From: Salisapilia sapeloensis
Taxonomy: Eukaryota; Oomycota; Peronosporomycetes; Peronosporales; Salisapiliaceae
Length of the DNA: 29,768 nt
Reading direction: 5' to 3'
NCBI GenBank assembly: GCA_023334545.1
Contig: JAADVB010000226.1
Location: 1 to 29,768 of the forward strand
Shown here: in pieces, positions 1,364-26,997 of the stretch
Layout: each line of letters begins with the position of its first letter
Position numbering within the stretch: the stretch's first letter is position 1
Program-made: the position numbers and the translations under genes
The notes under the pieces: model-generated
Database searches by the model: none
What the model saw: only the letters and a program-made list of their open reading frames with translations
What the model was told of the DNA's origin: nothing

Positions 1364-1414
1364 TCGACGTACCGCCTACACGCTTTCCAATCGGTGCTGT
1401 GAGGAATAGCTACA

Positions 1415-2122
1415 ATGGCCTCGGACGCAGTCGAACAGACTATCAATGTACTCGCGACGATCGCCACGGTGTTCATCTTCCTTAGTATGATTCCAGAACA
1501 CGTTCGCATTGTGAAGAGTAAATCGACACAGGGCGTCGCCTTCTTCCCTCTTGTTGCCATGTTCGTCCAGTCGCTCTTCTGGGTCCTCTACGGTTGGGCG
1601 TCTCATGCGTTCTGGCCTCTTAGTACGGTCAACTTGCTTGGTGTCGTCATGGCCGTTGTCTACTGGTGCTGCTTCCTGCCATTCGAAAAGGAGTACAACA
1701 AGCGCTACTATGGATACATCATTGTGTCCATCCTGTTTATGATCGCCATGATCATCTACACGATTGTCAGCCCGCAGGACCGCGACTACCGCTCCAAGGT
1801 TGTTGGCTACATGGCCAACGTCGCCGCTATCATCATGTTCGCTTCGCCATTCCTAGCGATGAAGGAGGTGATCACGTCCAAGCATTCGGACTTGATTTCC
1901 CCTGGTATGGCGTTGACCGGTATGATTAACGGTGCGCTGTGGTCTGCCTATGGGTTCATGCAGAGTGACGACTTTGTGGTGGTGCCCAACTTTATCAACG
2001 CTTGTCTGTGCCTCATCCAGCTCATCCTCATCGCCATCTACCCTCGCAGCAAGGCCAAGAAGGGAGCCGAGCTCGGTCTGGACGATGACAAGTACGACAA
2101 CCTTCCCGAGAACGCTGCTTAA
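1415..2122 (+). CDS. SWEET (MtN3/saliva) sugar transporter
   Basis: A complete 235-residue protein, the normal size for a eukaryotic SWEET with two triple-helix MtN3 repeats joined by a linker helix (seven membrane segments, roughly residues 8-28, 42-62, 66-87, 98-119, 130-149, 160-181 and 187-209). SWEETs carry sugars across plasma or internal membranes down their gradient. The proline tetrad that forms the gating hinges is visible (P27, P45, P145, P163), as are the pocket residues N73, W176 and N192, so transport activity is likely intact. The C-terminal tail is short, basic then acidic (KAKK...DDDKYDNL), and cytosolic. There is no intron. The ATG at 1415 opens the first helix with normal spacing and has an Inr 66 nt upstream. 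The substrate is not readable; glucose or sucrose is the family norm. Confidence 0.95.
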   Translation: MASDAVEQTINVLATIATVFIFLSMIPEHVRIVKSKSTQGVAFFPLVAMFVQSLFWVLYGWASHAFWPLSTVNLLGVVMAVVYWCCFLPFEKEYNKRYYGYIIVSILFMIAMIIYTIVSPQDRDYRSKVVGYMANVAAIIMFASPFLAMKEVITSKHSDLISPGMALTGMINGALWSAYGFMQSDDFVVVPNFINACLCLIQLILIAIYPRSKAKKGAELGLDDDKYDNLPENAA

Positions 2123-2723
2123 AGTATGTAGACGTGATGTACGGAAACTAGTGCGAATACAAGTCTATATTTGTCCATGTCAATGGTTGCAACCTATACA
2201 TTCGAATGGAAACTCCACGAGACTAATGAAAGTCCATCTAAATTGCTAATTATCTATGGTAACCGAATAAATATGTTATGTAAATACTCAGAGTATCTGC
2301 TTCAATGCATAAAAAGCAACACATTAGATCAATTTACTCTCGAGTAACAGGGAAATACGAGAGTACTACAGAGCAACCCCCACATGATACGACTCGACAC
2401 ATGGATGGATGAGTCAAGAGCAAGATCATCTATCCATACCAGCAACACCAGCTTTTTCACTGCATGAATCAAATCCTTGAAAAGCCAGTGCCTGCAAACA
2501 AAGTATCCCTCGTATGATCATCGCATCAGTCTATTTATGGATCGACAATACAGACACAACGTCACCGTTTTGCGTCTGATCTTTAGACTTGTCAGACGTT
2601 GCATTGGCTATAAATATCTTTTGCATTCGATGATTGGTGGTAAATACGCCATCGCAATCTCGTCGACCGGTACAATAGCGTCCTGGTCATTCCTCCGCAG
2701 CACTTCTCCTCACACGATCCTTG
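2123..2723. other. Intergenic: SWEET 3' flank and kinase upstream region
   Basis: About 600 nt, AT-richer than the flanking genes. It should contain the SWEET 3' UTR and the upstream region of the kinase gene. The frame at 2477-2779 is not protein-like and runs into the kinase gene in another frame. No RNA gene or repeat was seen. Confidence 0.5.
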
Positions 2724-2741
2724 CTCATCCCTTATTCTCTT
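2724..2741 (+). promoter_or_regulatory. Oomycete Inr + flanking element of the PH-MAPK gene
   Basis: CTCATCCC is followed by TTATTCTCTTC, a good match to the Inr/flanking-region pair. The initiator A is base 2727, only 27 nt before the ATG at 2754. This fixes the start: the open frame extends left to a TTG at 2721, but that codon lies upstream of the inferred transcription start. Confidence 0.6.
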
Positions 2742-2753
2742 CTAGCACAGGGC

Positions 2754-5700
2754 ATGGCAGTTCGGAGACGGGAGAATAACTTGACGCTCGAGTCTGCCGA
2801 TGTGGAAGAGTCTTTGACGATTGAGCCGACGTCGACGCCATGGATGTCCAGGGAGCTTTTCGACACGCTATGGCTCGAATCGACCCACCAGGCTAGTTCC
2901 AGTTGCACTTTTACACCGTACAAAAATTGTTCTTCTGCCGAATCATCTACATCGTCTTCACCAGCTACAGACAACGAAACGCCAGAGTATACGAGCAAAC
3001 CGTCACAGTCGAGATCTACATTCCGGTCGCAGCTTCTATCAGCACTCGGAAGTGAAATTATAGAGGTTCCTTCACATCAAAGCCAAGCATCAGATAAACT
3101 AGAAGAGTTGACCGAAATGTTATACGCGTACGCGAGTGTCAGTGATGACTATGGACTCGAGACAGTGTTCCTGATTCGACTAGAGCGTCTCCGTGGATCT
3201 GAGCAGGTCGCCATCACCGTCAAGAATACAGATCCAGCTCATCCGCTCAAGCTCAGCGTCTTCCTCGGTCTACTGCAGCAACGCATACAGCCAGAGCTGC
3301 CTCCGAGTAAGCCCCACGCGTTTGTGCACGACACGAACGACCTGTTCTTTCGCTCCGAGTCGTCCACAAAAGTCGGTTCAAGTCTTACATTAAGCAGTAG
3401 GAATGATCTAGAGCCTATGATAAGTCCACAGGTAACAAACAGATCTGTCTCGAAGCCTACGAATCGTGGTCGCATGCGTTCCCATACGATTCGATATCGT
3501 AGTGAAGAAGGTATTGCATTCGAAGGCTACTTGTCTAAAAAGAGCGACGTTCTAGTGAATTGGAAGACAGCATATTGCGTCTTAGAAGGCGATGCGCTTG
3601 GGTTTTATGAATCTCGAGAAGATTTCATCTCCAATTCGAAACTCATCGGTCGAATCCTCGTGCAAAAAGTAGAAAATGATAGTAGTGGTAAGCCGAATGG
3701 CTTTCGCGTAGTTACAGATGGAGGACGGACGACACACTTGAGCTCTCGTACGGCCTTTGAAAAACAGCAGTGGAAACGAGCGTTGAAGAATGCCATGTCG
3801 AAACACAGTGGCCGACCTCGCGTAGCATTTGGCTCTCAAGCGTTAAACCCGCATCGGTTCTACGAACTCTTAGGCTCGTTACTCAAGCAAGACGTGATCG
3901 ATTTCCCGCTCTTGTTCCAAAGCGTCCACCCTGACGTCGTGTTAACATCCAACTACCCTCCGATCGTTCCGTTCTGGGGACAATACAGACGCTACGATGG
4001 CCTCTTGCTCTACTTTTCAACGCTACTCGAGACCGTTAGTGTCGAGACGTTCCAAGTGCTCCAAGTCTCAGAGCTCGTGCGAGACGACGTCGATTGTGTC
4101 GATGCCGTCGACGATGGCGTATACAGTTGGGAGAAGCGCCTCGTCATCACTGGAAAAGAGACGCTGTCTCTCCTCGACTTTGAAGGTCGGAACATCACCC
4201 AGCTCTTCGTCCACGAGCTCTGGCTAGATCACAAGGACCGACTCGTGCGCTGGCACTTGAACGGCGATTCCGTCGCGCTTTCCTTGACGTTCGACGACGC
4301 GCCGAAAGGAGAGAACATCCGGCTCGTCTTGCCTGGCGAAGCTTCCTCCATCGACCATGCCATCCCTCCTGGCGTCTTCTACGTCCAAGTGTTGAGAGCA
4401 CAGCACCTCCAGGCCACAGGCAACGGCGTCCCAGTGTCGGGGAAGAAGTCCGACATGCGCGTCTGTCCACTCTACGTCCGAGCAGTGCTGGTCGAAGGGA
4501 CGCACGAAGAGCGAACATTAGATGGCTTGGACCTGTCCTCTACCAACGGCAAGCGTCCATCGAAAGGCACTCGCTTGTTCCGAGGATTAAAGCGTGCGAC
4601 AGGTATCTCTGGTCAGCGTACGCATGGCAAGTACGGCGATCCGTCTGGTTGTGTCACGCGTATCTGCAAATGTCCGTTGCCACAAGCGACCAAGAAGAAG
4701 GTAGAGGGTCTAGACCCTGAGTGGAGAAGTGACTTGCGACTTGAGTTTCCTGGATGCAGTCGAGGGTTCACGTACTACCTCAAGCTCGAAGTATTTCAAA
4801 GTCGTTTCATGCTCCCGGATGAACTAGTTGGAGTCTCTCGCATCAACCTAACGCCTCATCTGTCCTTGTTCAATGCGTCAGCGGAGGCTGTCGCGAACGG
4901 AGCGCTGGCGCGATGGCATAACCTGAGCGACCAATATAATGACTGTCGAGAGTCATGGGCTCCTCCGACCGTCTTCCGTGGTCGGATCCAAGTGAGCGTC
5001 GTCTTCGCACCGACTGTCACGTCTGCCAAGAGCCTTAGTGACTTGAACGCACAGGAAGGCGACGAGTCTCACTCGATGAAACTCGGAGACGGACGACGAG
5101 GGAGTGTTGCTAGGTCTCGTAGCACAAGCCACTTGTCATCCAAATCGAACGCCAAGATGTCGAGACTGGACATGTTGACGAGAGACAATCATACACTTGC
5201 AGGCAAGAGGTCTCTCTTCGACGTTCCGACCAAGTACGAGATGATTAAAGTCGTAGGAGCAGGTACGTATGGAGAAGTGATGGCTGCGAGCGACACAGAG
5301 TCGGGAGAAGCTGTGGCGATTAAGAAGATCTCGAATGCCTTCCAGGACCTTCCGGACACAAAGCGTATCTTACGAGAGCTGTGTCTGCTAAAGCAATTGC
5401 ATCATCCGAATATTATCCAGCTGTTTGATGTCCTCCGACCTGAACGTCGGTTGTACCTAGAAGACTTGTACTTGGTGACAGATCTCATGGAGACAGATCT
5501 CCATCGCGTCGTCCACTCGACTCAGACACTCACAGACGAACACGTTGCTTTCTTCATGCGACAGATACTCCGTGCTCTAGCGTACATGCATTCGGCGAAT
5601 ATCTTACATCGAGACTTGAAACCTTCCAACATCCTCGTGACGAGCAACTGTGAGCTGCGAGTAGCAGACATGGGTCTCGCGAGATACGTCGATCGATCTC

Positions 5701-6413
5701 AAGCCAAGACGTTTGGAGATCAGTCGTTCGTCCCGTTGACAGAGTACGTCGTCACGAGATGGTATCGGTCGCCAGAGATCCTACTGGATGGATGTCGATA
5801 CGATACGGCGTCCGATATGTGGTCTGCCGGCTGCATCCTAGCAGAGCTACTAGGTCGTAAGCCCTTGTTCCCTGGGTCGAGCACCATGAACCAACTGGAT
5901 AAGATCTTTAATGTCCTCGGCACACCCAGCACAGCATACGTGAATAAGATCCATAAGGAAGCAGCGAGGAAGTGGGCGCAGCGACAGCGCAAGCGTCGAG
6001 GCATTCCACTCGCCTCGCTCTATCCGAGTGCCAATACGCAGGCCATTGACCTCGTGAGTAAGTTGCTTGTGTATGACCCAGACAAGCGGCTTACAGCCAA
6101 GGAAGCGCTGCGTCATCCGTACATGAAGGAGGCGTTCCGGTCCATGAGGGCCGATAATATGGAACAGGACGAATGGATGGAGTACAGTGCGGCGGAAGAA
6201 GAGGAAGATACGTTTAGAGGTGTGATTGATGACTCGCACGAGTCGGTGGAAATGACCAAAAGCGCCATGCAGGACGCTGTCTTTGAACGGATCTGTCACT
6301 TCCATCCCGAGGCGTTAGAGTACGAAGAGGTCGTCAAGGAACAGGATGAGCAGTTCTGTGTCAGCCCAGAGTCTGGGAAGCTCGTGCCGATCAGGAAAAG
6401 CGTGATAGAATAA
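2754..6413 (+). CDS. PH domain / C2-like / ERK-type MAP kinase fusion protein
   Basis: A single-exon 1,219-residue protein. A Ser/Thr-rich N-terminus precedes a PH domain (about 255-350, with W-K-x-x-Y-x-V-L-E core and a C-terminal Trp helix). A C2-like beta-sandwich with a basic insert follows (about 540-750), then a complete CMGC kinase (828-1128). Visible kinase residues are the Gly loop GAGTYG, K857, the catalytic D954 in HRDLKPSN, the activation-loop TEY motif (996-998) followed by VVTRWYRSPE, and a LMETDL segment typical of ERKs. The metal-binding D972 sits in DMG instead of DFG. A roughly 90-residue acidic tail ends the protein. MAP kinases phosphorylate Ser/Thr-Pro sites after dual phosphorylation of TEY. 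Here the PH and C2-like modules suggest recruitment to membrane lipid, which is inference. Ordinary MAPKs are about 350-450 residues with no PH domain. ATG chosen at 2754 from the Inr. Confidence 0.92.
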   Translation: MAVRRRENNLTLESADVEESLTIEPTSTPWMSRELFDTLWLESTHQASSSCTFTPYKNCSSAESSTSSSPATDNETPEYTSKPSQSRSTFRSQLLSALGSEIIEVPSHQSQASDKLEELTEMLYAYASVSDDYGLETVFLIRLERLRGSEQVAITVKNTDPAHPLKLSVFLGLLQQRIQPELPPSKPHAFVHDTNDLFFRSESSTKVGSSLTLSSRNDLEPMISPQVTNRSVSKPTNRGRMRSHTIRYRSEEGIAFEGYLSKKSDVLVNWKTAYCVLEGDALGFYESREDFISNSKLIGRILVQKVENDSSGKPNGFRVVTDGGRTTHLSSRTAFEKQQWKRALKNAMSKHSGRPRVAFGSQALNPHRFYELLGSLLKQDVIDFPLLFQSVHPDVVLTSNYPPIVPFWGQYRRYDGLLLYFSTLLETVSVETFQVLQVSELVRDDVDCVDAVDDGVYSWEKRLVITGKETLSLLDFEGRNITQLFVHELWLDHKDRLVRWHLNGDSVALSLTFDDAPKGENIRLVLPGEASSIDHAIPPGVFYVQVLRAQHLQATGNGVPVSGKKSDMRVCPLYVRAVLVEGTHEERTLDGLDLSSTNGKRPSKGTRLFRGLKRATGISGQRTHGKYGDPSGCVTRICKCPLPQATKKKVEGLDPEWRSDLRLEFPGCSRGFTYYLKLEVFQSRFMLPDELVGVSRINLTPHLSLFNASAEAVANGALARWHNLSDQYNDCRESWAPPTVFRGRIQVSVVFAPTVTSAKSLSDLNAQEGDESHSMKLGDGRRGSVARSRSTSHLSSKSNAKMSRLDMLTRDNHTLAGKRSLFDVPTKYEMIKVVGAGTYGEVMAASDTESGEAVAIKKISNAFQDLPDTKRILRELCLLKQLHHPNIIQLFDVLRPERRLYLEDLYLVTDLMETDLHRVVHSTQTLTDEHVAFFMRQILRALAYMHSANILHRDLKPSNILVTSNCELRVADMGLARYVDRSQAKTFGDQSFVPLTEYVVTRWYRSPEILLDGCRYDTASDMWSAGCILAELLGRKPLFPGSSTMNQLDKIFNVLGTPSTAYVNKIHKEAARKWAQRQRKRRGIPLASLYPSANTQAIDLVSKLLVYDPDKRLTAKEALRHPYMKEAFRSMRADNMEQDEWMEYSAAEEEEDTFRGVIDDSHESVEMTKSAMQDAVFERICHFHPEALEYEEVVKEQDEQFCVSPESGKLVPIRKSVIE

Positions 6414-7953: not shown

Positions 7954-9660
7954 CTATCGCCATCCTACCGTCCAAAACGACATCGCGATTGCCACTGTCA
8001 ATGTTGTCTGCATTTGAGTTGACGCAATCCGACCACTTCCATTATCCTCATCCTCGACACCTCCATAGCACGGTATTTTGCTGGACGACATCTTTCCCAA
8101 AGCTTTTAAAAGATCGGCGTTCGCTTTCTGCCATGAAGCTACCGACATTAATCCATAGTGCGTGCGTCCGAATGCACCAGCTTTTCCATCCTGCGCTCCT
8201 TCAAGATAGTATTCAGTGTCTGGATTCAATGCCCAAAAGTATCCGCCTTGGATTGAAGCCGCATAATCGATCAGATAATCGAGAGCTGCTTTTTGATGGG
8301 GCTGTTCATCTTCGTAGACACCACTGAAGGATCCGAGAACAACAGGAATGGTGCTCTCAACGCTCACCAGATCTCCAAGTGCCTCTTCCATGACACTGGC
8401 ATAATTCGTAGCAATTTCTTTCACTGTTAAGTGTTCGTACGACTCACAATAGAACATCGAGTCGGAGCAATCGATCTTGGACTCTACTTTCTTACCATCG
8501 ACAAAGTCAACGCACTCGGTTTCAAGTTGGTCTTCCGTCAACGACAGATCATCTGCAGATGTCGAGCAGTTCCGGTCAACTTTATAAAAGTAGTTTCGAG
8601 GATCCACATTGTGTGCGTGTGCTTGAGGAGCATAGACAACTTTGTTTTTAGCGGAAACGTCCAAAGGTCTTTCGGTAGCGTTGTGAAGGTTCCCACCATT
8701 CCAATGTTTTGAACTTTGTTTCGGGTAGTCATCATTCACTTGAAAATTCTCGTATTGCGTTGGAGAGCTAGCACCTTCGACGAATACGAGCCACTGCGGG
8801 CAGAGCTCCAGTACGCGTTCTGTCAAGATCTCTGCTGCATCATGCCAATCCGTTTTTGGGTCTGACTCATTGTCGTTTCCAACCCATTGAGCGTCCAGCA
8901 TAGCATTTTTCATCGAGATGCCCAGGATGTTCCACAAACCTGCCTTACACATAGTTTTCGCAAGAACTGAGACTGCGTCATAAATGACAGTCTCATTCAC
9001 CTTCTTGTACGGAGCAGTGTACCACAATGCGTCTTTATTGTAGAGAGTGAGCAAGTGCATGTCAAGGAGTACGCTCACATGTTTATCTTGAAGTGTCTGA
9101 ATGAACCGACCGATCAAATCCAGATACGTGACATCGTTACTGTTTTCCCATGTCGTCAATTCTTGGTTGTCGTACTGGTGGATGTACGAGAGCTGGGGAG
9201 TCGCATCAGCAACGACATATGCAGCTTTTAAAGGCACACGCACAGAATTAAAGTCATTCGACTCGAGGAAGTCCATCACTTTTGCCTATACATACATGAA
9301 TTAATGTTACGACAGGTACCCGTAGCACCATAGATGAACGCACTATAGTTGTGCCTTGCGTGCCTTGTGCATTGTTACTATCTTGTCCCCATAAGCCCTC
9401 CGGAATCATGTTTTCTCTCTCGAAACCGCTCCATGTCACTCCTTTTATCTTTATTTCCGTCTCGATCGCCGAGTCTTCAGGATCAATGGCATATATCTTG
9501 CTATCTCGAGCAACGTAGTTTGGATGGCGGCACTCTATGATGCGGTTCAGATGATTAAACATTTTAACATTACATTGTATGAATCGGCACAACCTCGTAG
9601 CGCAGAACCCGGCGCTGATAAGGCTGTCAAAATCATTGTCATTAAAGCAAGTCGCATCAT
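7954..9660 (-). CDS. Secreted GH5-family cellulase-like protein with a GPI-type tail, predicted catalytically dead
   Basis: Exons on the minus strand: 9660-9594, 9534-9344 and 9285-7954 (1,590 nt, 529 residues). A signal peptide (MMRLALMTMILTALSAPGSA) precedes a GH5 (beta/alpha)8 domain: IKIKGVTWSGF near residue 50, FNSVRVPL, LLDMH, the NILGI..KN strand, WLVFVEG and YFWALNP. Members usually cut beta-glucans or cellulose with two glutamates. Both are missing: the acid/base strand reads KNAM at 212-215 where the family has NEP, and the nucleophile strand reads GSFS at 404-407 where it has GEFG. The usual PH.Y segment reads PQAH. The ends look maintained, with a small-residue site before a C-terminal hydrophobic stretch as in GPI-anchored proteins. 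It may bind glucan at the cell surface without cutting it. An Inr lies 54 nt before the ATG. Confidence 0.82.
9286..9343 (-). other. Intron 2 of the GH5-like gene (58 nt)
   Basis: Donor GTGCGT, branch-like CGTAAC and acceptor TATAG. Splicing joins GTTI to AKVMDFLESNDFNSVRVPL, which restores the continuous helix and strand expected in GH5 proteins. Confidence 0.85.
9535..9593 (-). other. Intron 1 of the GH5-like gene (59 nt)
   Basis: Donor GTTGTG, branch-like CTGAACC and acceptor CATAG. It links the signal-peptide exon to CRHPNYVARD through a split Glu codon. A competing donor (GTAATG, bases 9573-9568) would give an intron of only about 40 nt and seven or so extra residues. The exact donor is therefore uncertain, but an intron here is needed. 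Confidence 0.6.
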
Positions 9661-10747: not shown

Positions 10748-12886
10748 CTAGTTATGGAGCATCGGGTAGGAGATAGAAGTGGCCGAGGGCGAGAATGGTG
10801 GAAGCTGCTGATGTTGCGAACGAGGCGTGAGCGTCGAAGCCGACAGCGATCTCTGCGTTCCGACGTTGGCTGACACGCGATGACTGTTCGTCCGGCGCAT
10901 GCTTCCTTCCACAATCTGAATCTGGACACCGTCGGCAGCAGGTGCACGAACCTCCTCCGTGAACTGCCACCCGACATCATGATGCAGCAAGTCCATCGAC
11001 TGTGGACACAAGTGTCTCGCGACCACGACCTTGCCTTCGGATTCATACTTGTCCGCGACTTCACGCAGTGCTGCGACGGCAGAAAAGTCACAGAAGCGAG
11101 AGTTCATAAAGTCAATGACGATGACATCCGGGTCTTCGGACACTTCAAAGATATGACGAAAGGTCGAGACGGAGGAGAAGAGCAAGTCTCCGCTCATGTA
11201 GTACACCTTGACGCGCTCCGAGTTGGTGATTGTCTGTGGCGGATGCGAATCGTCCGACGTGTTGGACGTCGAGTTGTCGTCCTTTTCTCTCGTGACACGA
11301 AGGACTTCAGTCGTAGTCTCGAACGTGATCTGTCTTCCAGAGCTCCAACCGTGCACGAGTGCCTGCCAGATGACACCAACGATCACTGCGACAGCCAGGT
11401 TGACGGCTGCCGCCAGAACGGATACGAGGATGATATTGAACGCGTCGGCGGTCTTGAGACGGAAGATGAGGAGGATCGAGGGCCAGTAAAAGGTGTGTGC
11501 AACGATGATGAAGAGGATGCCTGTCAAGCAGGCAACAGGCACCAGTTCGATGAGAGAGCTAGCGAAGAGCACGACGATAAAGGTGCAGATGCCGGCCGTG
11601 AAGCACGACAGGCGGAAGCGAGCGCCGTTCAGGACGTTTCCCATGGACTGTCCGATCATGGAGCATCCACCCATGCCGCCAAAGACAGAGCATAGGAAGT
11701 TACCGATGCCTTGTGCTAAGCACTCTTTCCTGCACATGTACTCAGACAACTTCCGGTCCGTGACATCCACAACAGCTTGGAGCGTCATGATCGACTCGAA
11801 GATACCAATGGCAGCAACACTTCCAGCGCACGAGAAGACGGCACCCCAGTCCTGGACGCTCGTCAAGTTTGGAAAGACAAAGGATGGAAAGCCACCACTT
11901 AGTTTCGACGTATCGCCAACTGTGCGCGTATCATAGCCGAGGAGAGGGCGGTTGATACCGAATTCGAGCGCGACGCCAATGATGGCAACGACGAGAGTGG
12001 GCGGGATGAGGCGACCGATGACTGGTACCCGAGGAAAGTAGTGCATGATGATCATGGTTACGACGACGAGGCAGATGGTGCACCAGAGCACTGGATCGGA
12101 TAGCTTCATCCACTCAATGTTATGGTCCGACTCGCATTCACCAAACAACTGGTCTTTGTCTTTGCACTCTTTAAACGTCGTCATCTGCGATAGGAACATC
12201 ATGACGGCGAGACCGTTAAGGAAACCGATGTGAGCTGTGCGAGGGATCAACGCGAATAGACTGGAGAGACCTAAGAGTCCGAAAACAAATTGCATGATGC
12301 CAACGAGAAGCAACGCAACGAAGAAATGGTTCAGCCGCTCCTCTTCACTCAAGTATCCGATCGCGCCGTCCGTCCCCGTGAGCTCCGGCATGACCATCGC
12401 GACGGCTCCAGCGGCACCAGCGACCGTCGCCGGTACACCGCCCAACAATCCGACGACGAGGCCTAGGAAACCGGTGGCGTACAAACCTCGAACTGGCCCT
12501 AGATTGGCAACGTAGCTAAATGCGACGGTCTCTGGGATCATGAGCAACGTCGCGGCGATGCCACATAGAATCTCTGTCTGAAGCACCTTCCAATTAGTAA
12601 AGTAGAATGCCGACGAGTCCTTAATGTCCTTTGGAATTTTCTGGACGGTAGGTCCAGGATTGCTGTGTTTAAGCGCTCGTACGCCTTCTCGGGAGACCCG
12701 TAGAAGGCGCTTGGAGCCATGTACAAAGGTGGCATTTAACAATGCTGAGATGGACTGCACCTCTGGGTTCTCCGCCGATGGTCGTGCGTACGATTCGCCG
12801 ACTGCGGCACGATAGCTGTGTGGAAAATGGAGCAAGTCGTCTTGCTTGGCTGGAGATGGCACGGGTGAAGACGTGTGGGGGCTCAT
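10748..12886 (-). CDS. SulP/SLC26-type anion transporter with C-terminal STAS domain
   Basis: A complete single-exon 712-residue protein. After a roughly 95-residue cytosolic N-terminus comes the SulP membrane domain (about 105-510, many hydrophobic helices). Family-like segments include LQTEILCGIAATLLMIPE with FSYVANLGPVRGLYA, a GxxGAxAMVMPEL helix, GIFESIMTLQAVVD, and GGMGGCSMIGQSMGN. A STAS domain follows (about 556-645, with VIVIDFMNSRFCDFSAVAAL), then a Ser-rich tail. SulP proteins move sulfate, bicarbonate, chloride or related anions across membranes, and the STAS domain regulates them. The membrane core resembles the bacterial bicarbonate/sulfate branch, so sulfate and bicarbonate are both plausible. 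It is head-to-head with the CFAP47-like gene, 472 nt apart. The ATG at 12886 is the first in frame and has an Inr-like site 51 nt upstream. Confidence 0.93.
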   Translation of the reverse strand: MSPHTSSPVPSPAKQDDLLHFPHSYRAAVGESYARPSAENPEVQSISALLNATFVHGSKRLLRVSREGVRALKHSNPGPTVQKIPKDIKDSSAFYFTNWKVLQTEILCGIAATLLMIPETVAFSYVANLGPVRGLYATGFLGLVVGLLGGVPATVAGAAGAVAMVMPELTGTDGAIGYLSEEERLNHFFVALLLVGIMQFVFGLLGLSSLFALIPRTAHIGFLNGLAVMMFLSQMTTFKECKDKDQLFGECESDHNIEWMKLSDPVLWCTICLVVVTMIIMHYFPRVPVIGRLIPPTLVVAIIGVALEFGINRPLLGYDTRTVGDTSKLSGGFPSFVFPNLTSVQDWGAVFSCAGSVAAIGIFESIMTLQAVVDVTDRKLSEYMCRKECLAQGIGNFLCSVFGGMGGCSMIGQSMGNVLNGARFRLSCFTAGICTFIVVLFASSLIELVPVACLTGILFIIVAHTFYWPSILLIFRLKTADAFNIILVSVLAAAVNLAVAVIVGVIWQALVHGWSSGRQITFETTTEVLRVTREKDDNSTSNTSDDSHPPQTITNSERVKVYYMSGDLLFSSVSTFRHIFEVSEDPDVIVIDFMNSRFCDFSAVAALREVADKYESEGKVVVARHLCPQSMDLLHHDVGWQFTEEVRAPAADGVQIQIVEGSMRRTNSHRVSANVGTQRSLSASTLTPRSQHQQLPPFSPSATSISYPMLHN

Positions 12887-12922
12887 GGGAAAATTCGATT
12901 GAGACCGTGCACAATGGAGAAC

Positions 12923-12940
12923 TCTGAATGTAGGAATGTA
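12923..12940 (-). promoter_or_regulatory. Possible Inr of the SulP gene
   Basis: TACATTCC followed by TACATTCAG on the minus strand, resembling the Inr/CAWTTT pair. The initiator A would be base 12937, 51 nt before the ATG. The match is imperfect (ACA in place of TCA). Confidence 0.4.
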
Positions 12941-13358
12941 GGTCTGCCTCTGCTAGAGGATGCGCAGCTTCAGAAATACGGGTGATGTACTTGTGCGTCT
13001 ATTCGTACTGATAAAAGTTATTTCGAGCAAGAATAAGGAGTCAGTATAGAGCACAGATGCGTCTGGGTCCACCGTTTGTCTAACTTAAAGTAGTACCGAA
13101 TCTGATTCCTGTCATCGGAGCTGCGACAAAACTACTGTTGTAAGATACGTGGGACAGCTCCACGGGTCTTCGTATTGGACGTGTACAAGATTCGACGTCG
13201 ATTATGCCTTTGAAGTAGAATTCGAACTGGGTAAGGACATGGGGAGATGCCCGTTGTTCTTCATGTAAAAATGTGCTATTTGTTGAATTTGAAGTGCAGT
13301 TCTTGATGCTTGATGAAACGGACGGCCGTTCAAGTGGTGAGTCGACTTTCACTGTAGG
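12941..13358. other. Divergent promoter region between SulP and CFAP47-like genes
   Basis: About 420 nt serving two head-to-head genes. A minus-strand frame (13080-13439) crosses into the CFAP47-like gene but has no protein-like features. I found no convincing Inr in front of the ATG at 13359. An in-frame TGA at 13338-13340 rules out an N-terminal extension without splicing. Confidence 0.5.
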
Positions 13359-16300
13359 ATGGAGCGACTGCAAGTAGCTCCGACCGAGATCGAATTTGGA
13401 TCCGTCGAGACAGACGTCAACTACGTCGCTGTATTTCACGTCCGTAATAATAGTACGAAGCTCATTCGATATCGGGTGGAACCACCTTCGAAAGCTTCTC
13501 GTTTTAAAGTATTATTAAACAATCGAGATATCGCAGTCGAGGTGAATGCTACCATCAAGCTACCTCCTGGTATCACAACTACCTACCAAATTACGTTTGA
13601 GCATGAACGAGAGCGTCCTGAGCCGCTCCTTGATTCTGTCCATGATCTACTCTTGATAAAGGAAGAAAATCAATCACCGATCGAAGTGCCTCTATTCGCT
13701 CGTCGAGCTTGTCCAGACATTGACATCGAGCCTAGTCGATGTGACGTCGGTCTAGTGGTGATGATGCAGCGGAGTGCTGCATTTGTCAAACTTCGCAATG
13801 CTGGATCTCGAACAGGAAAGTTCATGATCGATATGATAGCCGGCGATAGCACGTCCGAAGGCAATGGCCAAGTCGGAAATACACTAACTGTCAATCCGGA
13901 AGAGGTAGTCCTTGCTCCAGATGAACGTGTCAGTATCAAAGTCGACGTTCTCGGTCAAGTCTTGGGTTCCTTTCGCCGCTTACTTCGTGTTCGAGTTGTG
14001 GAAAGCCAGACGTCTCACAACTCTAAAGATGCTGAAACTGGATGGAGTGATTTATGCAAGAGCGAAAAGTTTGTCGACGTTCGCGGCAAAGTTGTCAGTC
14101 ACACCATGGAGCTTCTTGCAACAAACAGCAAGCAAGCGCTTGAATCGATCTACTTTGGTTCTTTGTTTGCAGGTGAAAAGCGAACGATCCATGCCGTATT
14201 GCGTAACAATGGTCCACAGCCGCTGTCGTTCGATGCATCCATCAGCTTTAGCAGTAGTGGCACCAAGCAGGTAGATGAAGATCGAGCAACGTACGAACGT
14301 CGGAAAGAGTTACAGATATCACCAGCACATGGTAAGATTGAACCCTTTGCTGAAGTACCAGTCAGCTTCAGCTTCTCCCCCAAGGCAGTAGAGTGGGAAG
14401 AATGGAAGAAGCGGCAGTGGGAGCATCAGAAGGAGAACGATACTTTGGACGAGCTGCCACCATCTCTACTACAGGCATTCATGTCCATCCAATGCACTGT
14501 CAGCCACGTGCAAAACTTAACATTGGAAGTGTCTGGAAAACGATACTTACCAAAGATAACTCTATCTCCTGACTCTTGTATTGACTTTGGCGATGTCGCG
14601 AGTCATGATCGTGCAGATATGTTAGTTCAAATCAAGAATCTCTCAGGGTTACCAGTCCGATTCGTCCTACGAAAGATAGCTCATTTCTCATGCAAACCTG
14701 CTAGTGGGAGGTTAGATGTTCTCCAATCCCAAAGTCTAGTAATTAGCTTCACACCGACGCAACTCGGAACCTTTTCCAATGTCTTGAACTTGGTCGTGAA
14801 TCAAACGGTTCTATCAATACCTATCTCTGTGAAAGGAAGAGCTACCATTGTGGGTGAAGTGGACAGTCATAAGCCTCTTGTTGGAGGCGTTCAAGCCTTA
14901 CCAGAAGACTTTACACCAGCGTATAAATTCATTCAACCAGAGGACGCCAAGAAGACCCGAGGTGCCTTGAGCAAACGTTTCAATCGCATTCCGTTTTATG
15001 AGAAAGCAGCATTGACGAGTGAGGCTGTGGTCAATGAGTTTGAGGTAGAAGCCGCCGAGACTGGTCATTTAACGTACTCTGTCAAAGAGCTGGCGAAAAA
15101 GTCAGAGCATCGCGAAAAGTATCGCTCATTTCTCGAGGATCGGAAGAGGGAAAGAGATGCAAAAGCTCAAGAGAAGAAAGAGCGTCGGATTAGGTCCAAG
15201 CTAGGTATCACGCGCAGTATTAATGCTGCTATGCAGGAAGCCATGAGTAACAATGACGATGAGCTTGCGGTTCAGAAAGCGATGGAAGGTTCTGACCTTG
15301 GCATTGCAAGGCAGAGTGGCTTGGAGCCGAAGGAATTGACCTTGCCACGAGAATTGAAAACCAAGATGGAACCTTTGTGGCTGCATGAATCAGCGTTCGG
15401 ATTGACAACAAAAGTGTATTTCGACGAAAATAAGTTTGTCAAGAAGAAGTTTAAAGCTCAGCCGACAACACAGGCAGAACGAAGTGATTGCGAGATGCAG
15501 TTGGAGTTTGAACAGCTAGAACGCGTGCTTTCGGGACCTTCGACCATCCACTTTGGAAAAATTAGTGTCAATAGCATTGCTCGAAAGAGCTTGACGGTTC
15601 ATAATAAACTTCCGAGCTACATTCTCGTTGCATTGCACTTGAGCGTGGAAGATCAATTAGAAGAAATAGCTGTAGCCACGTCGCTCAAATCACAAGTCAT
15701 TCCGCCGAGATCCAGTGCTGGCTTTGATATTGGCTTTCGATCAACGCACGAACAAGTCTTTCAAAAGCAATTGACATACTCCATCAATGGAGCCCATTTG
15801 CGTCGAGTAACTGCTGTGGCCGAAGTTGCTCCGATCACAGTGCAATTATCCACGAACGAGCTAGAGTTTGCATTTAATGTGCTGGACACGAACCCAACCA
15901 TGTCGATGGCATTGACCGTCACGAACCCTAGTGACTCGTGCGCAACGTTCATGTGGAAGAACATCACGAATGTAGCTGCATCGATTGACGATAAGCAATC
16001 GGTTACGAGCAGTACAACAAGTTTAACTCGCAATAAGAATACTGCGGCACCAAAGCCAGCTCCTGGTAAACCTGTGTACCAGGTCCTTCCGGCAAGTGGC
16101 GAATTAGCGCCTGGGGCATCTATGAAGCTACAGGTAGAGTTCACACCTCCACCCTGTGCCTCCACTACACCGTATAATGGAAGCAAGATCAATCGAGGGG
16201 ACAGCGCTGCAATGATGTATCTTGTGAGTGACTTTGAAATGCAAGTGGAAGGAGGTCGACCAGTTCAGTTGAGTTGTAAGAGTCAACTAAGCGATGCTAA

Positions 16301-19300
16301 AGTTGATGTAAAGGAAAAGAAACTAGACTTTGGCAACGTTCCTGTCGGTATAGCGACATCCAAGAAGCTATGCATATCCAATAGTTCCCGCCAAGGTACT
16401 CGATCTACTTATTATGTTACTTTGGAACCAAATACGCAGGCGACATCCTTGGGATTTACATTGTCCAAGGCCGTCGGGTCGGTGTCTGCGCAAGATACGA
16501 GCGAGATCTATTTGGAATTGACTCCAAAGAAGCCTTTTACATTAGACGAAACAGCGCTGTACTTGCAAGTTCAATTCAGAGGTGGCAAAAGCGTTAAAGT
16601 ACCGCTGCATGCAGTTGCTTTGGTACCTGATGTCTGCATTACGCCGACAGAGCAGATCGACTTTGGTCGTGTCGTTATTGGCACCTCCATTTCTCGTGTC
16701 CTCAGTCTTGAAAACAGTAGCCCGACGGTGGCGACATTGGCGCTTGATTTGAGAAAAAGTCTTTCAGACGAGTTTGCAGTGTCCATGCCGCCTCATTTGC
16801 TTGAAGATCTGGAGGATGCAAGCAGCGTCTTCATTCCGTTGGAAGATAAGACTGCAAAGGAAGGATCAAGTGACTCGGTCTCTGCCTCGACCAAGTGGCA
16901 AATCTGCATCCCACCGAACGTGAAGGTGTCTTTACAACTGACGTTTACGCCAACGACAGCTACGTCTCATTTCAATCCATTGCCGCTCCAGTTTACAGGA
17001 TCCCAAAGTGTCCAGTGGAGTCGTCCACCAGCTATCGCTCGCCAAGTATCAGCAGAAGCAGTCGATCCGATCCTGTTGTTCTCATGTGCGAATATCAACT
17101 TCCATCGATGCGTCGTCACCCAGGAAGGTATTCGAAAAGTACCTTACACGAAGCAACTGGTGCTTACAAACAACTCGGACCGAACCCTTCAATGGGAGAT
17201 TGAGTTGGCAAAACTAAAGGCACTTCAGGGGACTGGCCATGTCATCTTTCACATGGCTCCGACGAGTGGAGAGCTAGCTAAAGGTGAAGAAGTTTTCATC
17301 CGAACTAGCTTTTTACCTATGGAAGAGATGGAGTACTTAGTGGAAGGGATCCCACTACTGGTAGAAGGACAAAGCTACATTGATTTAAGTTTATGTGGCG
17401 AAGGTATCCATCCGCATTTATCCTTTAGTGTCTCGAAAGTAGAACTGCCACCAGTACCACTCGGTATACCGTCGCAAGCAGTTTTCATACTACAAAGTAT
17501 CGGGTATGATCATTTGGATGTCACCTATCGCTTACCAATGGACTTGTCGAAAGCTCCTGTGACGTTGCATTTTCCCAAAGGTAAAATCCTGAGTATGGCG
17601 CATCCTGCTCTCCCAGTCGAAGTGCGCTTATTGAGCAAGACAAGTGTCGCTTTTAATGCTCGTATCGAATTCTTTGACTCGGATGGAAACTGCTTTCCTT
17701 TGCCACTGTCCGGATCGACAGAAAACTGTTTGCTTTCCAACTACTCGTTTCTACAGTCCACTAGTCTTCATCAAGACGATGCGGATGCTTGTAAAAGAGA
17801 TCATCTATCGTCCAAGTTTTGCTTCCTTACACACCCATCGGGAGAATATCCGATCTACCTAGTATCTGAAAAGCAATGGGACAAGGAAAACGGGAAGCAG
17901 GTAAAAATTAATACGAAGGGGTTGGAGCATCGACAAAGTGCCAAGTCGCAAACGCTTAAACCTCAACCAATGAACGGATTCATCGATGTCGATTGTAGTG
18001 ATATGTTAGAGGATGTGTCCTCCAATACAGCCAGCGCCCTACCACTGTCACCGGTTCGAAAGAAGATGACGATGGAGACACCGACTTTCAGTCAGCAGGA
18101 GATCGTTTTATTGATCAAGTACTTGAACGCGAATTTTGTGACGTCGCAGATCACAAAGTTTCCACATGATTTTGCTGAAAACCATGGCAAGCCTTTGTAC
18201 GAAATGCTCAGTATGGTCTGTCCAAAGAAACCACCGATGGGTGCAAAAATGTCCAAGCAAGCAAAGAATGTTAAAGTACCGGTAACCACTGCTCCACAGT
18301 CCAAGAAAGACGTACAGAACAAAGTCATAGCGCAGTACGCAAGCTTGCTCAAGTTCCTGAAGCCATATGGGGCGATGCTACATGACATTATGCCAGGACA
18401 TTTGCTTCCACAAGACTTGTACGTGCGAGCATGTGAGGACCCAGCGGCAACACCAGGCCTTCTCTCTTCACCTGCTTTGCTAGCGATGAGGTATGAAGTA
18501 CGTCGACAGGTACTAGAGAAGGAGTGGCTAGATATTAGCACGTCTGCATGGATGAAAGTGATCTATCAAGTCATTAAATGTTTCGTACTCTCACGTATTA
18601 CAGCAGACAGCTATACGAGTCAATTGCAGGAGAAAATCTTGTCGAATAAACAACATCGTCACTTTGACGGTAGTAACATCTATAGCGAAGGAGAGATGGT
18701 GCTAATACAATGGATATGCGATCACGTTCGTGACAAGGCAGCTACTCTTGAAAGCATCATGACCGTGCCATCCGATAGTTTGAAGCCTGAAGTACAACTT
18801 CTGGACATTCGTAACGACCTACAAGATGCTCGCTTCTTGTTCTATCTTCTAGCAGCGCATATTCCAACCATTCGAATGGAGTCGCGAGAGTTCCAATCAC
18901 TTCAATTCGACGTAGCTGATCTGAAAAATGTGAAAGACAGGTTTCAAAAGTCTAAGTTATCGCAGTCTCAATTGCAGCAGAACGCACAGGTCCTGTTACG
19001 AGCCTTCCAGTCTACCGGAGTGGACTTTGGACTCGACCCATCTACCTTCTTGGCGACAATGAACGGACGAGAGATGCTGCTATTGTTGTTGCATTTAAAG
19101 CAAGTTCTACCGCAGTTCGTTCCCAGGGCTACAATTTCCTTCCAAGGACTGCTTGGAACCGCTATTAAGAAAAAGATTGAGCTGACGAATCCTAGCCACC
19201 GTACCCTCGTCTATCAAGCATCTTTAGACCAGACCGGAGGATCTACATCCGGCGGTTCTCTTTCTGGTGGCCTCAGTGTGTCCGATATCTTCCAGATCGA

Positions 19301-22300
19301 GACGACACACATCGTTCTAGAGCCTCAGAAAGCGAAAGCGTTCGTTGTGACTTGTCATCCTCGTTTCTCTCGTAAGATGTGTGCTAGACTAGTCTTTCAG
19401 GCAGTACCGGACGGTAGTGATTCGACTGCCGCGAGTGGTTCGACTATGGTCTTTCTATTAGAAACGGATGTGAGTGCTCGTAAGCCTGTTCGCACGATTC
19501 AAGTGGACGCAAAGTTGTATGAACGCAAGGTGGAGGAGCTTGTCATCGAGAATCAATTTGCTTCGCAAGGCAACTTTAGACTATCGATGACGCAAGTGCA
19601 GACCCAGCAAGCGAGCTCTCCTTTTGATGCTGCACGAAGCACGTTAGAATCATCTCGTGGATCAGTCGTAGCAAATTCAAAGCCAGCTAGTCGAGGGTCA
19701 TCACGACGTGGGAAGAGAGGAACGATTGCTAGAGGATCGATGATAGACGTAAATGTCCCACTATCGAATCTAAGTACAAAGAAAGAAAGCGCTGGTACGG
19801 ATACCAATTGGTGTATTAGCGCGTATCTCCCATTTTTCCTTCCTGATTATCGTGACGCTGGAAGCAATGCTTCGAACGCAACCTCGAGCAGCGCTATAGC
19901 AATGTCTGGACGAGGAAGCGGAAAGATTAAGCTCGAGTTCCTACCGCTTATACTTGGTCAGTACAAATGCCAACTACTTTTCTTAGACGAACAAGTTGGA
20001 GAGTTCATGTACGAGATTCACGGCGTTGGGCACTTGCCTCTGCCATTGGAGAGGTTAGAATTTCAATGTGAACTACCTGATAAAGGCCAGTCATCTGCTT
20101 CCGCTTTAAGTCGTGGACAATTTCTTCGAGAGGTTTTTGTGCCGACAAAGAACGCACCACTATCTAAAGTACTTCCATCAGTCGTGGATCGATTTGATGG
20201 TCTTGTGAAAAGCAAGTGGAAAGCTGGGCTAAAGTCATGTGAAGACGAGCACCATACCAACTTCAAAATCGAGTTCAATTCTCCTTTCTTCACTCCTGTT
20301 TACCAAGAAGTGGTCATGTCAAGTGCTCCACCGTCCAAGACGCATCCATCTCGACCGAATGTCAACACAATAGGCTTAACAGAATCCGACTCAGCTCGTT
20401 TGGAAAGCGGAAGTGAGTACGGTGGATGTAAAACAGTTACTGGGAAAGCGAATCACGCTTTGGTACGTACCCCGAATTCTAGTAGCACGCTCACTGTTTC
20501 GACACCAAATACAGCTCTGTTGAGGTTTGAGCCCAAGGCTGCAGGTGTGTACACTTGCAAATTAGCTTTAAAGTCGCAGCATACTTGCTGTGGTAGTGTG
20601 GATTATCGCGTCTACGACGTTGTCGCCACAGTCAAAGAGCCGAATGTGAAGACCCATCTTGAGTTCGTATCACCGGCGCGTCAGAGTATCTTACAAGATA
20701 TTCCACTATCAAATCCTTCCGACACGACATGGACCTTGAAAGCCACTTTTAAAACCGAATCGTCTGAGAATACGCAAGATGGTACTGACAAGCCAGGAGC
20801 AAATGACACGAAGAGCATGTTTTCCGGTCCATCATCCTTGCTGGTACCGCCACGTAAGACAGTGAGCTACCCTCTATCTTTCACGCCAAGGTGGATATCC
20901 AACCAAGTTACCACGTTCGTCCTGCAGGATCCAGCTACGCAGCAGCAGTTTGAGTTCGAACTGAATGGCATTGGCGACGCACCGCTAGCACTAGACCATG
21001 TGTCCCTGTCGTGCCAAGCTCGCACTAGTATCGTCCACGAGTTTATCGTTACAAGCTTTGCTGACGATCCACCTGGTAGCCAAACCTACGAAGTCGATTC
21101 CGACTTGCGTGACATTATCGGAAACTCCACTGTCAAAGTACCGAATGCCGGCAAGTCGGTCAAGTACCCTTTAACGTTTACACCTCGCGTGAGTGGCATA
21201 TACTCAGGATCCATTACATTTACCAATACAAGAACGAAAGAGTATATGTGGTACACCATCGAGGCACTCGTGAGTGCACCTGATCCAGAAAGAACGTTGG
21301 AGATGAAGACAGCAGTACGAGAAATGATAAGTGTTGAGATTAGATTGGTGAATCCACTTGAAACCGCGGTGGAGTTTACGATCGATCTACAAGGTGACGG
21401 TCTCCTTGGACTGGAAACATTTTCTATGACTGCTAAAGGTGAAGGCATCTATGAGTTGATGTATTCTCCATTGCATACAACGGACCCGGATAAACCAAAG
21501 GAAGGTGCGATCCAGTTCTCTAACCACGAGATAGGACAGTTCTGGTATCGACTGTTGCTATCGGCAGACATGGCTGAACCGCAGGCGACGGAAGATATGT
21601 GCTGTGCTGTTGGCGACGTATGCACTCAACCAATTATTCTTCAAAACCCATCAGACCAAGAGATCCATCTAAGCTATCGTATATCCAACACACGTAACTT
21701 TTCCATTAAAGGAAGCAGCAGCGGTAGTAACAGCTCTTCTCAGCAGCCTCGTATCCCCATCGCTCCATTCGGAGAAACGACTGTTCTAGTCGAGTATACT
21801 CCATCCTCCTTATCCGAGTTTGAGACGTCAAGTATTGTATTTGACGAGCCAGGTGTTGTAAGTGACTGGGAATACCTCGTGCGTGGGAAAGGGAAAGCTC
21901 CGAGTGTCATGAAGCCTATCAACATGTCGACCAAAGTACATGAAGTGGCGACAATCATGTTCCCATTTAAAAACCCGTTTGCATCTATCATCAAGGTCGA
22001 TGTCACTCTTACCATTGATCATGCGGAAGACAAAGAGCGACCAATCTTTGATGTGCTGTTGAAAAAGAAAGAAAACGTACACTTGAACAGCTTTACGTCT
22101 CTTCAAGTGCCAATCGTATTCACCCCGGAAGTTGTCTGTGAAGCTCACGGGATGATTTATATTCGAGGACGGGAAGAATACTGCGAGCTCGAATGGAAAT
22201 ATCCAGTGTATGGCGTTGCTGAAGCACCGTTGCATCCTCGTGCTTTTGTATTGGCATGTCCGGCGAGAGAGTCGATCGAAAAGGATATTAGTTGCGAATT

Positions 22301-26126: not shown

Positions 26127-26997
26127 ATGCTTGATGGATGATAGACCAAGTTGCTTTCACACAGGGGGAAACTTTTAAATGAATATGGGAGATATAAAAG
26201 CTTTTAAATGTATTTATAGATCATTCAAGTTTATTAGATCAATGCACAAACTCTAAATTTGGAAACACTGATCATCTCTTGAAACGGTCAGGCTCAGTGC
26301 AGTGGGTCTCAATGGTAGTTGTTGATGGCGAGTGTCCTCATCTACGCACATTGTAAGGCTAGTTCATATCTGAACAGATCTAAATCTCACTCAGCTACAG
26401 CTTTTTCATATAATGGGCACATTCGAGACTAATATGTTCGTGACTGCTGCCGTCAGTGGTGGGCTCGTAAGCAGAACGAAAACCTACAAATGAGTACTAT
26501 GTTCACCTGCTATATAGCTATTAACATTACATGTACAGATGAGTGAGGAGAGGCTAAATTAGACAACGAAGTGTATTCAACCTATTAATTTTCCCATGAA
26601 GAAAGGATTGAAAACGCTTGTGCTCAGGTTCAGAGTTAGCCAAATCCGATTGTCTCTGTTCAGTGAATGATATGAATTAGGACAGTTTTCATGATCTAAT
26701 TTACCAATGGCCCCTCAGATAAAAAAGACAACGGACAATGAAAACACCGAGGCTTCTATGCGTATAGGAGGTATAGCAAACTTGGTTGTGCTCATGCAAA
26801 AACTTGCCGTGGACCTAGCAAATAACTTAAGCATCCAAACAGTTACAAGTCGTAGCGCATGATCTTTAGAAAGATAGTCTAGTCCTCATAATAACAACCA
26901 TCTCTCTGCTAGTTCTCAAATCTGACTGGGAAACTTCCAATGAAACGACTTGTATCATTATAAATAGTCTTCATGCTCAGACACTACTTACATGGGA
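26127..26997. other. Intergenic region upstream of the receptor gene
   Basis: About 870 nt of AT-rich DNA with no open frame over 60 codons that looks protein-like. No tRNA, repeat array or transposon terminal repeat was seen. Confidence 0.5.

Follow-up and report, generated by a model that had tools for sequence, protein, structure and literature searches.

The oomycete proteins referred to as 'cellulases' fall in GH5_20, a stramenopile-only subfamily whose activity is given as not determined in the sections of Aspeborg et al. consulted here (PMC3526467), and of which no member appears characterised according to an excerpt of another paper (PMC8637047). In spores of Phytophthora kernoviae, GH5_20, there called a cellulase family, ranks with the most strongly expressed CAZy families according to the passage available (PMC8295517). 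The fungal GH5_30 is described in the same sections of Aspeborg et al. as the one subfamily whose sequences all lack the essential residues (PMC3526467). For Phytophthora parasitica, function is stated in the passages available to have been deduced with the help of key catalytic residues wherever this could be done, and the supplement of that study may hold such notes (PMC4176579). In passages of oomycete papers GH5 proteins are handled as hydrolases, glucanases among them, with no mention of catalytic loss in oomycete GH5. The gene described here is located on contig JAADVB010000226.1 of the oomycete Salisapilia sapeloensis (assembly GCA_023334545.1), where the whole stretch of 29,768 nucleotides, referred to as the window, was analysed. 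It encodes a GH5-like protein that lacks both catalytic glutamates and belongs to an oomycete family, termed family A, in which the nucleophile is replaced; a second family without the nucleophile, family B, is represented in the same genome.

Loss of catalytic residues in two oomycete GH5 families

Catalytic GH5 enzymes carry the acid/base glutamate in an NEP motif on strand beta-4 and the nucleophile glutamate in a GEFG motif on strand beta-7, and these positions read Asn-Ala-Met and Gly-Ser-Phe-Ser in the protein from the window. The absence of both glutamates, proposed in an earlier note on this DNA, is confirmed by phmmer, by an alignment of 107 sequences and by a structure model. In the strong phmmer stretch, GISMKNAM lies over GADLKNEP of the Pyrococcus horikoshii endocellulase, and in entry 3qhn the NAM column falls on the E201A crystal mutant. 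The placement of GSFSGVY over GEFGGKY belongs to a separate stretch of 0.6-1.0 bits that is non-significant alone, so that the GSFS column rests on the alignment with the 106 other sequences and on the AlphaFold model of exon 3, in which GSFS lies within strand 317-321. Assignment to GH5 is based on a PF00150 match of 33 bits against a curated cut-off of 23.5 (E 5.7e-8, with the protein of gene model A, below), and the nearest solved sequences are P. horikoshii endocellulase entries (E about 2e-21). The structure model covers exon 3 only, with beta-1 missing, and predicts a (beta/alpha)8 barrel like that of solved GH5 enzymes, with a predicted local distance difference test (pLDDT) score of 88.2 and a predicted template modelling (pTM) score of 0.86. 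Arg102, His163, FVEG and FWALNP are retained as the earlier note had stated, but the retention of FVEG is atypical, as its glutamate position holds Gly in 29 of the 36 family A rows (1 Ala, 1 Thr, 4 gaps) and Glu only in this protein.

An ordinary active GH5 enzyme whose catalytic glutamate is supplied from elsewhere in the chain is very improbable. The chain contains many Glu and Asp residues and Glu256 adjoins a conserved strand, but the alignment to oomycete paralogues and the fold model place both motifs at their usual strands, and the equivalent of Glu256 occurs alongside the intact catalytic pair in 28 of the 34 intact-motif relatives, so it is no stand-in there. The predicted loss of canonical hydrolysis in this protein is well supported by sequence.

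A protein search (~5.8 billion proteins) returned 32 matches and a profile search 62, each scoring ~8000 candidates sharing most words, and 107 rows were grouped by hand from the match lists and a motif table into 36 of family A, 37 of family B and 34 others. The named members of family A come from Globisporangium, Pythium, Phytophthora and Plasmopara, with one from Aphanomyces. Their signature GxFSGVYG, which replaces GEFGGVYG, places the Salisapilia protein in this clade. Glu is found in the nucleophile column in none of the 35 family A rows with a residue there (19 Ser, 12 Ala, 3 Thr, 1 Gln; 1 gap) and in the acid/base column in 23 of 33 (9 Ala, 1 Pro in a fragment; 3 gaps), so that the protein belongs to the minority of the family without both residues; all 34 other GH5 relatives retain the pair. 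The sister group of family A (P0029-P0031) has intact NEP and GEFGG.

Family A also differs in a PHAHxHG segment, where conservation across the 28 longer rows stands at 96% for both the middle and the last His, positions at which active relatives mostly have Tyr and Pro. Most family A rows (e.g., P0004 and P0013) read HxHxH where intact-motif relatives read PHxY, and this segment could be a metal site; two of its three His persist in the Salisapilia protein (residues 306-311). Gln at the His column is carried by eight of the nine rows with Ala at the acid/base position. A coupling of acid/base loss with the His-to-Gln change was considered and set aside, as only two independent pairs fall on supported branches, which carries no statistical weight.

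The GH5 search of the genome gave nine places corresponding to eight loci, and NEP and GE[FW] are kept in six of the seven besides this gene. The exception, C232 (C232:9061-9960), reads KDGL and LSSFGG and has an N-terminal membrane-helix-like stretch. The genome holds 17 PF00150 matches, of which distant ones on C101, C52, C23, C31, C436, C5 and C235 (seven loci) were only motif-scanned and left uncounted. With the C232 protein as query, 37 matches were obtained, the named ones including Phytophthora, downy mildews including Hyaloperonospora, Pythium, Lagenidium, Albugo, Aphanomyces and Achlya. The nucleophile Glu is found in none of the 37 family B rows, and a Glu stands in the acid/base column of one (P0077, beside an insertion). 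Some family B members are labelled endoglucanase in databases. The family-wide loss of the nucleophile, the partial loss of the acid/base residue and this second family had all been missed in the earlier note.

In a tree of 47 of the 107 rows, chosen by hand (14 family A, 15 family B) and with six motif columns masked, each family forms one clade at 100/99; family A joins its three intact-motif sisters at 100/99 and family B joins nine intact-motif rows at 96/88. An unmasked 88-row quick tree recovers the same groups, with Shimodaira-Hasegawa-like approximate likelihood-ratio test (SH-aLRT) values of 99 for family A (100 with its sister) and 100 for family B (86 with its sister). By parsimony, the nucleophile state changes twice and the acid/base state five times on the masked tree, while a tree of 32 family A rows takes one change of the nucleophile, three of the acid/base residue and four of the His of HxY; the nucleophile was lost a single time in family A. 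The Salisapilia protein groups with P0015, P0027 and P0036 at 92/91 in the 32-row tree but is the first branch of family A in the masked tree, so that its place within the family differs between trees. The Aphanomyces stellatus row (P0036) carries the family motif but nests among Pythium-like rows on a long branch, so that family A is not traced back here to a shared ancestor of Saprolegniales and Peronosporales. As two losses each have an intact-motif sister and family A has intermediate members, a path from enzyme to binding protein becomes testable.

Two further observations concern individual family A genes. Those of Pythium oligandrum (P0002, P0008 and P0014) have nearby locus numbers (011719, 011718 and 011723) and lie on contigs of identical length, which suggests a local expansion. 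The entries P0010, P0002, P0007 and P0023 are 816-913 residues long, one with many extra Pfam accessions that we take to be Kelch-type, and are probably gene-model fusions.

Candidate functions of the Salisapilia protein

The favoured reading, considered probable though well short of certain, is that the gene encodes a maintained, secreted GH5-fold pseudoenzyme that would be tethered to the cell surface and hold beta-glucan. Its ancestor would have been an ordinary two-glutamate GH5 protein with a C-terminal hydrophobic tail, in which the nucleophile disappeared, by parsimony in a single event, where family A begins. The acid/base residue would have gone later in a minority of its lineages, that of Salisapilia among them, usually together with the neighbouring His. 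The exported protein would then be anchored by a glycosylphosphatidylinositol (GPI)-like C-terminal signal, and its inherited substrate cleft could grip a beta-glucan chain without cleaving it. The protein would probably bind cellulose or mixed glucan in the wall of the organism itself, where it could serve as a linker, a scaffold or a sensor. Surface glucan binding fits the putative signal peptide, the GPI-like family tails and the GH5 fold, and glucan holding would most simply account for a GH5 cleft that stays conserved after its nucleophile has gone.

The best 14-residue mean hydropathy at the C-terminus ranges from 1.49 to 3.15 across 21 of the 36 family A rows measured and from 2.24 to 3.06 in three sister rows, compared to 0.71 and 0.39 in two other intact-motif relatives, which, judged by hydropathy alone, points to a signal of the GPI type in family A as well as in its sister group. 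In three family B rows the C-terminal values are 0.48 to 1.10 and N-terminal stretches reach 2.17 to 2.79 instead, suggesting an N-terminal membrane helix. GPI anchors are reported for 3 of 25 P. parasitica GH5 proteins in the passages available (PMC4176579).

Leave-one-out column conservation, which is not a test of the ratio of nonsynonymous to synonymous substitution rates (dN/dS), was computed for family A rows of at least 430 residues with P0027 and P0036 set aside. Of 82 columns invariant in the 24 other rows, 80 are kept by the Salisapilia protein, compared to 92 to 100% for those rows in the same test, 75/78 for P0027 and 64/78 for P0036. The protein thereby looks to be under constraint, and three findings support the earlier proposal of a maintained pseudoenzyme over simple decay, namely the conservation of the family, the retained columns and the intact frame.

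Several observations weigh against the favoured reading. The protein sits on a comparatively long end branch for family A (0.59 vs a median of 0.16 in the 32-row tree). The active site shows further changes (His to Gln and Tyr to His), and affinity may have fallen. The hydrophobic tail anticipated by the earlier note is present but modest, with the lowest value of the 21 measured in family A (1.49, the next 1.52). The Pfam GH5 match is weak in places, with none for P0001 of family A and one under the cut-off for the Albugo row P0081 of family B. No family A member from Albugo was found in either search, each of which scored only ~8000 candidates.

The long end branch and weak tail, together with the loss of the Asp that precedes K[ND]xM in most relatives, would also suit a recently dead gene, in which a cellulase copy drifts after losing its catalytic residues. 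This explanation is largely contradicted and highly improbable: exon 3 is open across 443 codons, with none of 2000 base shuffles staying open, the introns are plausible GT..AG introns, the invariant columns are kept, the nucleophile loss is common to all of family A, and the end branch is similar to that of the family B copy in the same genome (0.41 vs 0.35 for the C232 protein in the masked tree). The codons GCT and TCC lie at least two and at least three bases, respectively, from a Glu codon, and one sequencing error therefore does not account for the replacements.

Alternatively, the family A site may run another reaction, with the Salisapilia copy being a decayed end of the line or using other residues. 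Such changed chemistry could draw on the acid/base Glu and the conserved His residues of most family A rows and on Glu256, but it is unlikely for this protein, which has neither the acid/base Glu nor the His that opens the HxHxH series of the segment, and family B is conserved across orders without the acid/base Glu (36 of 37 rows) and mostly without the His residues.

The decoy function raised in the earlier note, the weaker half of its reading, is quite unlikely. A released dead enzyme would absorb a host inhibitor or receptor of active cellulases in the manner of PsXLP1, a GH12 paralogue from Phytophthora sojae that is inactive and binds the host inhibitor GmGIP1 according to the passage available (PMC8960721). 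A putative signal peptide is present and many named family A rows come from plant pathogens, but others come from Pythium insidiosum and P. oligandrum, described as the agent of pythiosis and a mycoparasite in the passages available, and the parallel family B occurs in Albugo, Achlya, Aphanomyces and Lagenidium. A membrane-held protein would also be poorly suited to release, and no fast-evolving pattern is apparent from the invariant-column count. As both families occur in species with very different hosts, a plant-specific decoy is less likely than a function in the cellulose-containing wall of the organism itself. Albugo and Hyaloperonospora are obligate biotrophs, and the occurrence of family B in both points to an own-wall role.

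A broader proposal, which is doubtful, extends surface glucan binding to both families. Oomycete GH5 cellulases would twice independently have been converted into membrane-held, non-cutting receptors or scaffolds for own-wall cellulose, with a C-terminal anchor in family A and an N-terminal helix in family B. The family A stage without the nucleophile but with the acid/base Glu and HxHxH may do other chemistry, and the Salisapilia protein would be a fully non-catalytic end point.

Gene structure and neighbouring genes

The gene of the putative pseudoenzyme (minus strand, 9660-7954) has three exons and two introns, and its product has 529 residues, with splice sites inferred from the reading frame and homologues. 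Models A and B, with alternative first introns, were dropped for model C, which matches the family A N-termini and reproduces the residue numbering of the earlier note (213-215, 306-309 and 404-407); the frame, two predicted introns and putative signal peptide described there are likewise recovered. Homology searches and alignments were run with the model A protein, which differs from that of model C by five residues near the N-terminus. The protein starts with a hydrophobic stretch like that of a signal peptide, and this N-terminal layout is common to P0007, P0008 and P0014 of family A (..AVRECRHTNYIAR, ..AKRACRHANYIARD, ..AKNECRHPNYIARD). A '1 TAG' in the genome-scan match was rejected as an in-gene stop, as the match begins at 9288 and the TAG is the last three bases of intron 2.

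Among the neighbouring genes, the kinase frame contains a sequence, TEYVVTRWYRSPE, that resembles a mitogen-activated protein (MAP) kinase loop. The CFAP47/HYDIN-like frame suggests a flagellated life stage. The receptor frame has a long N-terminal part without a Pfam match.

Table 1. Features of the putative pseudoenzyme gene and other genes in the window.
Feature	Position	Strand	Basis
Exon 1, start codon and signal peptide (MMRLALMTMILTALSAPGSALR)	9594..9660	-	inferred splice site; family A N-termini alike
Intron 1, 59 nt, GT..AG	9535..9593	-	frame and homologues
Exon 2 (ECRHPNYV..GTTI), should carry barrel strand beta-1	9344..9534	-	aligned to P. horikoshii endocellulase and family A; outside structure model
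Intron 2, 58 nt, GT..AG, phase 0	9286..9343	-	frame and homologues
Exon 3, remaining GH5 barrel, C-terminal tail and stop	7954..9285	-	frame; AlphaFold model
Arg102 of VRVPL, kept	9238..9240	-	family alignment
His163 of LLDMH, kept	9055..9057	-	family alignment
Asn213-Ala214-Met215 (AAT GCT ATG) replacing NEP, acid/base Glu absent	8899..8907	-	phmmer, family alignment, model
Glu256 of FVEG (254-257)	8776..8778	-	family alignment
PQAH (306-309) replacing PHxY	8617..8628	-	family alignment
Gly-Ser-Phe-Ser 404-407 (GGA TCC TTC AGT) replacing GEFG, nucleophile Glu absent	8323..8334	-	family alignment, model
FWALNP (436-441) with conserved active-site Trp437	8221..8238	-	family alignment, model
C-terminal hydrophobic tail, resembling a GPI signal in position and hydropathy only	7957..8004	-	best 14-residue mean hydropathy 1.49
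SWEET-type sugar transporter	1406..2119	+	MtN3_slv
Single 1244-residue frame, PH domain (281-373) and protein kinase domain (853-1149)	2679..6413	+	
Sulfate permease	12952..10751	-	weak STAS match
Single 3204-residue frame	13341..22955	+	matches CFAP47 and HYDIN/CFAP65 immunoglobulin (Ig)-like domains
938-residue frame, class C G-protein-coupled receptor seven-helix domain	26156..23340	-	7tm_3, E 1.1e-40

Comparison with described proteins

In papers on oomycetes, GH5 genes are counted as glucanases and their expression is interpreted biologically; if two conserved lineages cannot cut glucan, these counts may mislead. If the favoured reading is true, surface proteins that bind glucan have gone unnoticed as a class. 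No account of family A or B was found in literature searches that covered open-licence papers, and a report in supplements or subscription papers is possible.

Compared to the EGPh/E1-type GH5 endo-1,4-beta-glucanases (P. horikoshii 3qho/3qhn/3qhm and Acidothermus E1 1ece), the Salisapilia protein has both Glu and the His and Tyr of HxY replaced and a C-terminal hydrophobic tail. The intact-motif oomycete relatives may belong to GH5_20, the stramenopile subfamily of Aspeborg et al. (PMC3526467), with which only their taxonomic range agrees. An N-terminal transmembrane domain is reported for P. parasitica GH5_20 in the passages available (PMC4176579), whereas family A has a signal peptide and a C-terminal tail.

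Inactive relatives of glucanases are described in other settings. The gp43 protein of Paracoccidioides brasiliensis, likened here by description, is a glucanase relative said to be inactive (PMC2809070, excerpt), whereas the orthologue in P. lutzii, which has NEP, is described as active (PMC4148228, excerpt); this contrast is a difference between sister species, unlike the conserved family A. PsXLP1 is, according to the passage available, an inactive paralogue of a secreted oomycete glucanase, PsXEG1 (PMC8960721), but it belongs to GH12, is inactivated by truncation and targets a plant inhibitor. GH5_30, also likened by description, is fungal, whereas family A keeps the acid/base Glu in many of its rows. 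The Rsi24C-GH5 biosensor of Clostridium thermocellum, again likened by description, is a GH5 module without the acid/base residue that binds crystalline cellulose extracellularly, as given in part of Aspeborg et al. (PMC3526467). It differs in being bacterial and coupled to an intracellular anti-sigma factor, and as a GH5 module that reports crystalline cellulose without its acid/base residue it provides a precedent for glucan holding.
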